Shown here piece after piece: positions 14,736-28,162 of a stretch of DNA of 33,528 nt; position 1 is the first letter of the stretch; every line of letters begins with the position of its first letter. The notes under the pieces were generated by a model. The model had not been told where the DNA came from. It saw only the letters and a list, made by a program, of their open reading frames with translations, and made no database searches. The stretch covers positions 1 through 33,528 of the forward strand of contig CAILTR010000115.1 of NCBI GenBank assembly GCA_903837175.1, in the 5' to 3' direction. The DNA comes from an uncultured bacterium. GTDB lineage: Bacteria > Patescibacteriota > Minisyncoccia > Moranbacterales > GWC2-37-73. A program made the translations under genes and the position numbers.

Positions 14736-15188
14736 ATGCTTTGTCCCTATTGCACTAACACTGAAACAAAAGTTGTCGACTCGCGTGATACTAACGATGG
14801 GAAAGCAATTCGCAGACGCCGAGAATGCGAAAAATGCCAAGCTCGTTTTAGTACTTATGAGGAGATGGAAATAATGCGCCTTTCCGTAATTAAGCGGGAT
14901 GGCAGTCGACAAGAATATGATCGCAAGAAAATTGAAATCGGTTTCCATAAGGCTTTAGAAAAAAGGCCAGTCAGTGAAGAAAAAATCAATAAAGCGATTG
15001 GCGATATCGAATATGAAATTCAAGCCAAGGAAGGGAGTGAAATATCTAGCAAAGAAATTGGAAAATTGATTCTAGAAAAATTAAAGGAAATGGATGACGT
15101 CGGCTATTTGAGATTTGCCAGTGTCTATAAGTCCTTTAAATCAGCTGACAGTTTTCGGAAAGAAATGGAGAAGATGGAGGGAGCTTGA
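14736..15188 (+). CDS. nrdR: transcriptional repressor NrdR
   Basis: MLCPYCTNTETKVVDSRDTNDGKAIRRRRECEKCQARFSTYE zinc ribbon plus ATP-cone. Confidence 0.95.
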   Translation: MLCPYCTNTETKVVDSRDTNDGKAIRRRRECEKCQARFSTYEEMEIMRLSVIKRDGSRQEYDRKKIEIGFHKALEKRPVSEEKINKAIGDIEYEIQAKEGSEISSKEIGKLILEKLKEMDDVGYLRFASVYKSFKSADSFRKEMEKMEGA

Positions 15189-15352: not shown

Positions 15353-17476
15353 ATGAAAAAACAAAAGAAAGCTGGGGTGAAAAAGATTAGTAAGGTGTTG
15401 GCTGTAAAGAAAGTGGCTAAAGTTCAGCCGAGAAAAAATAAGAGTTTGGTTACTAAATTAATTAAGCGAAGTGGTCGGGTTGTTCCCTTTGACCAGAAAA
15501 AGATTGCGATTGCTACAACAAAGGCTTTTGCCGCTACGGGAGAAGGTAGCCCGAAAGAAGCTCAGAAGGTCAGTGATAAAGTAGTCCAGCTGCTGAACAA
15601 GAACTTTAAAAAAGGCTTCGTCCCCACGATTGAGGAATTGCAAGATATTATCGAGCGCGTCTTGATGGTCCTAGACTATGAAGAAACAGCTAAAGCGTAT
15701 ATTCTTTATCGCGAGCAGCATCGCAAGATTCGCGCCGTCAAAGAATCAATTAGTGAAGCGGTGGATTTAGTGGATAGCTATATTAGTCGAGCGGATTGGC
15801 GCGTAAAAGAAAATTCAAATATGGAATTTTCGCTGCAAGGACTTAATAATCATATTTTCTCAGTCGTTTCAGGAAAATATTGGATGGAAAAAGTTTATCC
15901 AAAAGAAATTAGGCAGGCGCATGAGGGCGGAGATATTCATATCCACGATTTGCAGCTTATTGCCGCTTATTGCTGTGGTTGGGATCTACATGATTTATTA
16001 GTGAAAGGTTTTGGGGGAGTGCCTGGTAAGATTTCTAGTGCCCCGCCAAAGCATTTTCGCGCAGCCTTGGGACAAGTAGTTAACTTTATCTATACTTTGC
16101 AAGGCGAGGCTAATGGTGCGCAAGCTTTTGCTAACTTTGACACCTTGCTAGCACCTTTTATCCGCTACGATAAATTGAGTTATAAAGAAGTAAAGCAGGC
16201 AATGCAGGAATTTGTCTTTAATATGAACGTGCCAACTCGGGTTGGTTTCCAGACTCCTTTTTCTAACATTACCCTGGATTTACAAGTACCTAAAATTTAT
16301 AAAGAGCAAGCAATCATTATCGGCGGAAAACCGCAAAAAGAAGTTTATGGCCAGTTTCAGGAAGAGATGAATATGATCAATAAGGCTTACGCTGAAGTAA
16401 TGACTGCTGGCGATGCCCAGAATCGAGTTTTTACTTTTCCAATTCCAACTTATAACATTACCAAGGATTTTAATTGGGAAGATAAGGCCCTGAATCCAAT
16501 TTGGGAAATGACTGCTAAATATGGGATGCCGTACTTTGCTAACTTTGTAAATTCTGACATGAGTCCAGATGATGCGCGGTCAATGTGTTGTCGCTTGCGG
16601 TTGGATAATCGCGAATTATATAAACGAGGTGGTGGACTTTTTGGAGCTAATCCCATGACTGGCTCAATCGGGGTAGTGACGATTAATCTTCCGAGGGCAG
16701 GGTTTGTAGCGAAAACTAAGAAAGAATTTCTAGATCAAGTTTATCATCTTATGGATTTAGCCAAAGAAAGTCTCGAAATTAAGCGGACTTTCGTGGAACG
16801 GCTAACAGATATCGGTCTTTATCCTTATTCTCGTTTTTATCTGCAGGATATTAAAAAGCGTCGCGGGGCTTATTGGTCAAACCATTTTACCACGATTGGA
16901 ATTATCGGGATGAATGAAGCACTGCTAAATTTGCTAGGCGTTGATATTACGACAGAAAAAGGCAATAAATTTGCCGAGGAAGTTTTGGAGAAAATGCGAG
17001 ATCGAATGGTTAAATATCAAAAAGAAACTGGCAGTTTATATAATTTGGAAGCTACGCCAGCCGAAGGCACGACCTATCGTTTGGCAAAATTGGATCAAAA
17101 GAAATATCCCGAAATTATTTTTGCCAATGATCAATCAGTAAAAGAAAAAGGTGGGGAGCCATATTATACAAACTCGTCTCATCTACCCGTTGGCTTTACG
17201 AGCGATATCTTCGAAGCTTTAGATTTGCAGGATAATTTGCAATCAAAATATACAGGCGGAACCGTGCTCCATGGATTTATCGGGGAAAAGATTAGTGATA
17301 TCGAAACTGTAAAAAAATTGGTTAGAAAAATTGCAACCAATTATAAGTTACCCTATTTTACCTTCACGCCAACTTTCAGTGTATGTCCGGTGCATGGCTA
17401 CATTTCAGGTGAAAAGCATATCTGTCCGAAGTGTGAAATAGAATTAGTTGCGCCTAAGTTTGAAACAGTAAAATAA
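15353..17476 (+). CDS. nrdD: anaerobic ribonucleoside-triphosphate reductase (NrdD), lacking the C-terminal glycyl radical motif
   Basis: ATP-cone, NSNMEFSLQGLNNHIF, GGDIHIHDL, NMNVPTRVGFQTPFSN, TPTFSVCPVHGYISGEKHICPKC; ends without an RVVGY-type motif. Confidence 0.92.
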   Translation: MKKQKKAGVKKISKVLAVKKVAKVQPRKNKSLVTKLIKRSGRVVPFDQKKIAIATTKAFAATGEGSPKEAQKVSDKVVQLLNKNFKKGFVPTIEELQDIIERVLMVLDYEETAKAYILYREQHRKIRAVKESISEAVDLVDSYISRADWRVKENSNMEFSLQGLNNHIFSVVSGKYWMEKVYPKEIRQAHEGGDIHIHDLQLIAAYCCGWDLHDLLVKGFGGVPGKISSAPPKHFRAALGQVVNFIYTLQGEANGAQAFANFDTLLAPFIRYDKLSYKEVKQAMQEFVFNMNVPTRVGFQTPFSNITLDLQVPKIYKEQAIIIGGKPQKEVYGQFQEEMNMINKAYAEVMTAGDAQNRVFTFPIPTYNITKDFNWEDKALNPIWEMTAKYGMPYFANFVNSDMSPDDARSMCCRLRLDNRELYKRGGGLFGANPMTGSIGVVTINLPRAGFVAKTKKEFLDQVYHLMDLAKESLEIKRTFVERLTDIGLYPYSRFYLQDIKKRRGAYWSNHFTTIGIIGMNEALLNLLGVDITTEKGNKFAEEVLEKMRDRMVKYQKETGSLYNLEATPAEGTTYRLAKLDQKKYPEIIFANDQSVKEKGGEPYYTNSSHLPVGFTSDIFEALDLQDNLQSKYTGGTVLHGFIGEKISDIETVKKLVRKIATNYKLPYFTFTPTFSVCPVHGYISGEKHICPKCEIELVAPKFETVK

Positions 17477-17505
17477 ATTTTTTCTGTTATCCTTAGTGAA
17501 AAACT

Positions 17506-17624
17506 TGTCATCCTGAACTTGCCTGTCCGCCTTGGGAGGGTTTCAGGATCCTCGTACTAGTAAGCGCAGTGAACTAAATAAAGTACATAGATGCTGAATC
17601 CGCCAGCTGGCGGACAGCATGACA
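17506..17624. repeat. MITE-like element copy A with terminal inverted repeats
   Basis: TGTCATCCTGAACTTGCCTGTCCGCCTT...GGAGGGTTTCAGGATC ... GATGCTGAA...CAGCATGACA; shares its layout with 28057-28162. Confidence 0.7.
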
Positions 17625-17721
17625 TCGAGTCCGTTTTCAATCAAACGCCGCAAGGCGATTAAAATAAATTAAATTAATAATGAAAATTTGCATCTTGCGA
17701 GAATAATTAAAATTCTGCATT

Positions 17722-18021
17722 TTGCAAAAAAACAAAAATATGGAGAGTCACACTTGTCATGACTGCGGAAGCGTTTTAACTTGCGGGACTGAATTCGTGC
17801 GTTTTGAAGGTGCCCTGGAAGGTAGTGATGCGCTTAAATGTCGAGAATGCTTCGATAAAAATCCAGCCTTGCAAAATTTCCAGGCTTGTGACGTTTATTC
17901 TCGTGTCGTGGGTTTTCATACCCCAGTTCGCCGTTGGAACAATGGAAAAGCTGCAGAATGGAATGATCGCAAAACTTACCAAGTAGATGGAACTTTCCAA
18001 GCAGCTTGCGCTAGCTGCTAA
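17722..18021 (+). CDS. stand-alone glycyl radical domain protein (NrdD C-terminal-like, GrcA/YfiD-like in concept)
   Basis: CDVYSRVVGFHTPVRRWNNGKAAEWNDRKTY matches the NrdD glycyl radical region; N-terminal CHDC/CREC zinc-ribbon-like Cys. Listed start is TTG; ATG at 17740 is likely. Confidence 0.85.
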   Translation: MQKNKNMESHTCHDCGSVLTCGTEFVRFEGALEGSDALKCRECFDKNPALQNFQACDVYSRVVGFHTPVRRWNNGKAAEWNDRKTYQVDGTFQAACASC

Positions 18022-18462: not shown

Positions 18463-19164
18463 ATGAGAATAGGTGGTTTCCAAAAAATGACCCTAATCGA
18501 CTATCCCGGTAAGTTGGCAACCACGGTTTTTACGGTGGGCTGTAATTTTCGTTGTAGCTTTTGCCATAATCCAGAGTTGGTACTGCCAGAAAAGTTTCCA
18601 CCCTTGAATAATTTAGAAGCAGAATTTTTTCAGCATCTTTCGCGGCGCAAGGGAAAATTGGAAGGCGTTTGCATTACGGGTGGCGAACCAACTATCCAAC
18701 CAGACTTGCTTGATTTTATTAGGAAAATTAAGCAAATGGGTTTTTTAGTTAAGCTTGATTCTAACGGTAGCCAGCCGGAGGTATTGAAGAAAGTTATTGC
18801 GGAAAAGCTGGTTGATTTTATTGCGATGGATATTAAAAATAGTCCAGCTGGATACGTGCGCACAGTTGGAATTGGTGTCGAGCTTAAAAAAATAAGGCAA
18901 AGCGTAAAGTTGATTATGGAAAGTGGAATTGACTATGAATTTCGCACTACTGTCGTGCCTGGGATCCATGGCGAAAAAGATTTTGAAAAAATTGGCCAGT
19001 GGCTTGAAGGTGCAAAAGTTTATTATTTGCAAGAATATCGCGAAAGACATATTTTAGATTCAAATTTGAAAACTAAGACAACTGGAAAAACTCTTGATTT
19101 AGGGAAAATTAAGCAACTGCTGAAAGTTTATGTTAAAAAGGTAGGAATTAGGGAAAATAGTTAA
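18463..19164 (+). CDS. nrdG: anaerobic ribonucleotide reductase activating protein (radical SAM)
   Basis: MRIGGFQKMTLIDYPGKLATTVFTVGCNFRCSFCHNPELV; TGGEPTIQPDL. Confidence 0.88.
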   Translation: MRIGGFQKMTLIDYPGKLATTVFTVGCNFRCSFCHNPELVLPEKFPPLNNLEAEFFQHLSRRKGKLEGVCITGGEPTIQPDLLDFIRKIKQMGFLVKLDSNGSQPEVLKKVIAEKLVDFIAMDIKNSPAGYVRTVGIGVELKKIRQSVKLIMESGIDYEFRTTVVPGIHGEKDFEKIGQWLEGAKVYYLQEYRERHILDSNLKTKTTGKTLDLGKIKQLLKVYVKKVGIRENS

Positions 19165-27996: not shown

Positions 27997-28056
27997 GCGA
28001 TGCTAATCCGCCAGTTGTCAGACTGGATCGCTTACTCCGCCCAGGGCCGCTCAACT

Positions 28057-28162
28057 TGTCATCCTGAACTTGCCTGTCCACCTTTGGAGGGATTCAGGAT
28101 CTCGGTTACAGACAGTTTTGTGAGATTAAGAAAGCAGATGCTGAAATGAATTCAGTATGACA
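28057..28162. repeat. MITE-like element copy B
   Basis: TGTCATCCTGAACTTGCCTGTCCACCTTTGGAGGGATTCAGGATC ... TTCAGTATGACA terminal inverted repeats. Confidence 0.7.

Follow-up and report, generated by a model that had tools for sequence, protein, structure and literature searches.

Can the radical loop of an anaerobic ribonucleotide reductase (RNR), an oxygen-sensitive enzyme that produces the building blocks of DNA, reside on a polypeptide of its own? The question is raised by a 33,528-nt stretch of DNA from an uncultured member of the Patescibacteriota (the window), in which an earlier note, made from sequence alone, had seen the glycyl-radical motif on an open reading frame (ORF) next to nrdD. 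Our analysis suggests, with a probability of roughly 0.86, that the window encodes a two-chain class III (anaerobic) RNR, which probably arose after the radical domain had acquired a spare copy.

Gene anatomy of the locus

In the window nrdR, nrdD, a small ORF and nrdG are all encoded on the plus strand (Table 1), and the nrdR product probably regulates the operon. NrdD has the NRDD barrel and finger-loop cysteines of class III enzymes, and nrdG, a dedicated radical-SAM activase of NrdG2 type, is the third gene of the cluster, just where the earlier note had placed it. As that note also stated, NrdD lacks the RVVGY motif. Its profile match stops at position 528 of 562, no RVxGY is present in the chain, and the C-terminus, ...TPTFSVCPVHGYISGEKHICPKCEIELVAPKFETVK*, lies just past the zinc ribbon. 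In full-length relatives the radical loop comes straight after this same ribbon in the alignment of C-termini; the truncation has removed only the sequence beyond it. The alignment with Thermotoga maritima NrdD (4coi) reaches only residue 613, and the radical glycine of that enzyme, Gly621 (PMC4493059), lies beyond this point. The SMCCR motif of the finger loop belongs to the double-cysteine class and is analogous to SCCR in T. maritima (PMC9669993); by this analogy it is expected to provide the thiyl radical site.

The end missing from NrdD is matched by the product of the small ORF, which carries its own CxxC...CxxC ribbon together with CDVYSRVVGFHTPVRRWNNGK; the radical region reads CDVYSRVVGFHTPVRRWNNGKAAEWNDRKTY. 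The earlier note was right about the motif and the CxxC pairs, but its length of about 99 residues has to be reduced to 93, counted from the ATG at 17740 rather than from a TTG, the corresponding methionine being aligned in all relatives. The distance from the NrdD stop to this start is accordingly 263 nt rather than about 245. The view of the small chain as simply the missing tail of NrdD also needs correction, since it has an extra ribbon of its own and NrdD keeps the original one. At the predicted radical site the small chain reads G-F-H-T, and most NrdDs have G-Y-[IL]-R at that place, a difference that counts against the two-chain reading. Homologues occur in 52 of 58 related genomes, a count that includes the C-termini of full-length NrdDs. 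AlphaFold modeling of the small chain alone gave a pLDDT of 65, with moderate confidence for the ribbon only, and the model had no significant match in the PDB. A phmmer match to zinc-finger arrays, which might have made the ribbon a relative of Zinc finger protein 568, reflects cysteine spacing only and was dismissed.

Table 1. Features of the RNR cluster (positions in the window)
Feature	Position	Strand	Evidence
nrdR, RNR-gene repressor (Zn ribbon and ATP-cone)	14736..15188	+	Pfam Zn_ribbon_NrdR 1.9e-20; ATP-cone 2.8e-20
nrdD, catalytic chain without glycyl-radical loop, 707 aa	15353..17476	+	NRDD 1-528/562, E=1.9e-183; PRK08270
ATP-cone domain of NrdD, residues 36-124	15458..15724	+	Pfam ATP-cone 1.3e-23
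Finger-loop motif SMCCR, residues 410-414	16580..16594	+	sequence position
NrdD zinc ribbon CPVHGY...CPKC, residues 678-694	17384..17434	+	alignment of C-termini
Dispersed repeat in the gap between nrdD and the small gene	17490..17650	+	8 places in the genome
Small chain (stand-alone glycyl-radical protein), 93 aa	17740..18021	+	Pfam NRDD 509-562, E=2.7e-9
Extra zinc ribbon of the small chain, C6xxC9 ... C34xxC37	17755..17850	+	cysteines invariant in seven homologues
Small-chain Gly58, predicted radical site (RVVGF)	17911..17913	+	equivalent to Gly621/Gly580 by alignment
nrdG, radical-SAM activase, NrdG2 type	18463..19164	+	TIGR02495 2.7e-63, above cut-off

Probably two chains rather than one broken gene

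Could a single polypeptide still be made, by frameshifting, stop read-through or intron or intein splicing, or could the split be an assembly error? A few relatives do have both ORFs in one frame with an intervening stop (e.g. at loci L140, L141 and L142). In the window, however, they are separated by a non-coding, repeat-bearing gap. Its length varies among the six species sampled from the genus. In several relatives the ORFs overlap out of frame or, as in the family f44 described below, the piece is unlinked. The window has no Rfam match, so no known RNA element or intron was seen, and Pfam scans found no intein domain in NrdD or the small chain; an intein- or intron-split NrdD was rejected on these grounds. 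The arrangement recurs in five Moranbacteria as well as in six congeneric species, which contradicts an assembly error. Thus, neither a frameshift nor a misassembly, which the earlier note had counted against a split, was found, and a surviving single polypeptide is the least credible of the alternatives.

Between the small ORF and nrdG there are a further 441 nt. The repeat in the first gap contains CCGCCAGCTGGCGG; its copies elsewhere in the genome are partial, and another lies in the window at 28053-28101. Separately, seven patescibacterial genomes (G292, G220, G336, G117, G258, G168 and G273) encode NrdDs of 1000-1550 aa, in which the profile match is broken at about 157-158, 263 and 417-438 by what looks like inteins.

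A second full-length nrdD, likewise raised by the earlier note as a point against the split, was not found in the genome, which is 96% complete; a candidate on contig 75 was discarded, its match spanning the ATP-cone region only. Nor does the genome encode a PF01228 glycyl-radical enzyme, which leaves the small protein with no detected partner other than NrdD. Another contig carries class I NrdA and NrdB, and the class III enzyme therefore need not be essential. Taken with the repeat lying between the two parts, this might suggest a decaying or non-functional enzyme, of which only remnants of a broken gene persist. Against such decay, both ORFs are under strong purifying selection, with dN/dS of about 0.02-0.06 for the small ORF and 0.01-0.04 for nrdD (dS saturated). 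Moreover, the small-ORF motif and start are kept in 11 genomes, the split is retained in several lineages, and the small ORF has a ribbon of its own that is not found in NrdD tails. We therefore regard decay as very improbable. A chance arrangement is excluded by the low dN/dS of the small ORF together with the conservation of both ORFs in six species.

Distribution of the split

The split proved to be conserved in related genomes: all six sampled species of the genus have the two-ORF arrangement, as do five Moranbacteria (so labelled after one named record). We then extended the comparison to 390 Patescibacteria genomes drawn irrespective of this trait. A separate glycyl-radical ORF was present in 36 of 36 genomes with an uncut truncated NrdD versus 5 of 33 with a full-length one (Fisher test, 1e-14, which for related genomes is not a clean probability). 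In one of the 36, G394, the small ORF has RVVGW and was recognised only by reading the ORFs of that genome. In six further surveyed genomes both parts share a frame, with a stop codon in between. The small gene sits between nrdD and nrdG in nearly all cases and is unlinked in three genomes. The split was also seen in Bacteroidota and Pseudomonadota and reaches cultured bacteria, with named replicons of Cupriavidus necator H16 (pHG1), C. metallidurans, Cereibacter, Paracoccus denitrificans, Ralstonia and Sulfuricystis. The two-chain class III RNR proposed in the earlier note stands as the best reading, but it is widespread in Patescibacteria rather than peculiar to this genome.

The small chains come in three kinds. 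The first (80-110 aa), found in the window, Moranbacteria and their neighbours, has the N-terminal CxxC...CxxC ribbon; the second (50-60 aa) has SRVVGY only; the third (55-75 aa), from some Patescibacteria, Pseudomonadota and Bacteroidota, has RVMGYHRP. Full-length NrdDs have the radical loop within a few residues of the zinc ribbon, and truncated NrdDs retain the ribbon, followed by a short divergent tail to the chain end.

Two patescibacterial cases differ from these kinds. Family f44 has an unlinked ORF of 150-190 aa, in which an N-terminal domain without a Pfam match is joined to FERLRRITGYLVGTLDRWNDAKK; this ORF was seen in the three genomes with an unlinked gene (G164, G212 and G341; loci L145, L147 and L149) as well as G298 and G425 (L151 and L152). 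The NrdD loop is lost in some of these genomes and kept in others, which makes the family a distinct case of the split, involving another type of NrdD. In G372 the small glycyl-radical ORF (L142:2964-3452) seems, on visual inspection only, to continue into a glutaredoxin-like domain (TTNTCPKCPAVKKLI), and such a fusion could couple delivery of radical and reductant.

Evolutionary history

For the evolutionary analysis we used 99 NrdD cores with the radical region removed; six full-length rows in which no cut point could be recognised were entered at full length. The tree was built by a rapid, bootstrap-free search and leaves several inner forks open. The split state requires seven changes on it, at least six of them forced by well-supported branches. 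The genus of the window and the five Moranbacteria form one split clade (support 99), and other genera of the window's own family, mostly having a full-length NrdD plus a small ORF, group apart. Since the genus groups with Moranbacteria and not with its own family, the split operon was likely transferred between lineages.

Full-length NrdD and the small protein coexist in 12 rows of the tree, and a split member, G025, is nested among such both-form genomes. One genus contains both states: G055 has a full-length NrdD plus the small ORF, and in G039 NrdD stops at SCEIYSRVL* and the small ORF is kept. In this genus (L060:4540-4760 and L061:1700-2260) the stop falls inside the radical motif of one NrdD, and the loss of the motif from the G039 NrdD is apparently recent. 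Where both copies exist, their likeness is 0.76 within a genome versus 0.71 between genomes (permutation, 0/5000), a pattern that copies fitting the same barrel, or exchanging sequence, would be expected to show.

The many relatives with both forms, along with the genus showing both states, make it probable that the spare copy preceded the split. The simplest reading is that the spare copy came first and the in-cis loop was lost afterwards, although the tree is unrooted and this direction is inferred. An ancestor would have gained a stand-alone copy of the radical domain beside a full-length nrdD, and once that copy sufficed, the in-cis loop may have disappeared, several times independently.

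Relation to known systems

The class III NrdD/NrdG systems of T. maritima (4coi) and phage T4 (1h78) have an ATP-cone, a barrel, a double-cysteine finger loop, a zinc ribbon and an adjacent radical-SAM activase in common with the window, but in the window the radical loop belongs to a second polypeptide, which has an extra zinc ribbon. In C. necator H16 pHG1 (WP_011154155, WP_011154154 and WP_011154153) a loop-less NrdD, a small RVMGY protein and NrdG are similarly clustered; here, however, the small protein has 66 aa and no extra CxxC ribbon, and the NrdD falls in a separate clade. Split class II RNRs are already known (PMC9669993). Pseudomonas aeruginosa NrdJa/NrdJb likewise has an RNR catalytic chain in two parts with a zinc finger on the C-terminal one, but is B12-dependent, has no glycyl radical and is cut at a different site (PMC9669993, PMC4520616). 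The literature that we searched, which included few subscription papers, presents class III RNRs as a single chain with an activase. Nowhere in it did we see a description of a split enzyme of this class, of an NrdD spare part or of the C. necator split itself, and any novelty is claimed for this set of papers only.

The earlier note had likened the small protein to GrcA (YfiD), a described autonomous glycyl-radical protein that repairs oxygen-damaged pyruvate formate-lyase (PFL) (PMC8683613). Both are small stand-alone glycyl-radical domains, and the small chain would likewise act on another polypeptide. Unlike GrcA, the small chain of the window matches NRDD rather than PF01228 (Gly_radical), has an NrdD-type sequence and NrdD as its predicted partner, and would replace the domain permanently. 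Might it nevertheless be a spare part for oxygen-cleaved NrdD rather than a standing subunit? On one hand, many relatives have a full-length NrdD alongside the small protein, and the archaeal virus ANMV-1 (KP703175.1) encodes the small piece but no NrdD, which recalls phage T4 Y06I, a counterpart part for PFL to judge by a title cited in PMC11194802. On the other hand, NrdD in the genus of the window has no radical loop to be damaged, nor a glycyl-radical site of its own at which it could be cleaved and then rescued, so the small chain there is not merely a repair part. A spare part is thus tenable only for the both-form relatives, where the GrcA parallel is closer; for the window it is unlikely, and a permanent subunit is the preferred reading.

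The ANMV-1 protein (AJP62049.1; L123:3857-4291) is 144 aa long, stands alone as a glycyl-radical protein of NrdD type and includes a CxxC ribbon of its own; the 38-kb viral record contains no NrdD, and the protein is possibly a viral part for host NrdD. A broader idea, to which we give an even chance, is that spare parts for NrdD exist in nature, in the form of a free-standing glycyl-radical protein. Such a protein would serve full-length NrdD after oxygen damage, is carried even by the NrdD-less ANMV-1 and would repeatedly have become an obligatory subunit.

Proposed mechanism and implications

In the two-chain enzyme, the ATP-cone would come from the large chain, as would the first zinc ribbon and the ten-stranded barrel, in which the finger-loop cysteines lie; the small chain would add the glycyl-radical loop on its own ribbon. 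NrdG would, by homology, generate the radical on Gly58. The loop would then enter the barrel of the large chain and hand the radical to a cysteine of SMCCR, acting in trans as the C-terminal loop of an ordinary NrdD does in cis. An AlphaFold model of a read-through fusion of both Moranbacteria chains, from a shallow alignment, reached a pLDDT of only 46 and does not support the docking of the chains; the putative complex and its catalysis are proposed from gene anatomy and homology.

Known class III structures show a buried radical glycine, and access of the activase is presumed to need a significant conformational change (PMC4493059). With a detachable radical chain this step becomes separable and testable. 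The split also accounts for RefSeq listings of two "NrdD" genes per organism. In C. necator, for example, the 66-aa piece is annotated, without comment, as nrdD and the large chain as ribonucleoside triphosphate reductase. Surveys that assume a one-chain NrdD or exclude sequences under 400 residues, as one has done (PMC9531940), would miss the split. More generally, a central radical enzyme appears to have been rebuilt repeatedly from two chains, the likely route being a spare copy followed by loss of the original. If the spare-part idea is true, autonomous glycyl-radical cofactors would extend beyond pyruvate formate-lyase, and the NrdD family would preserve a record of a repair part turning into a subunit.
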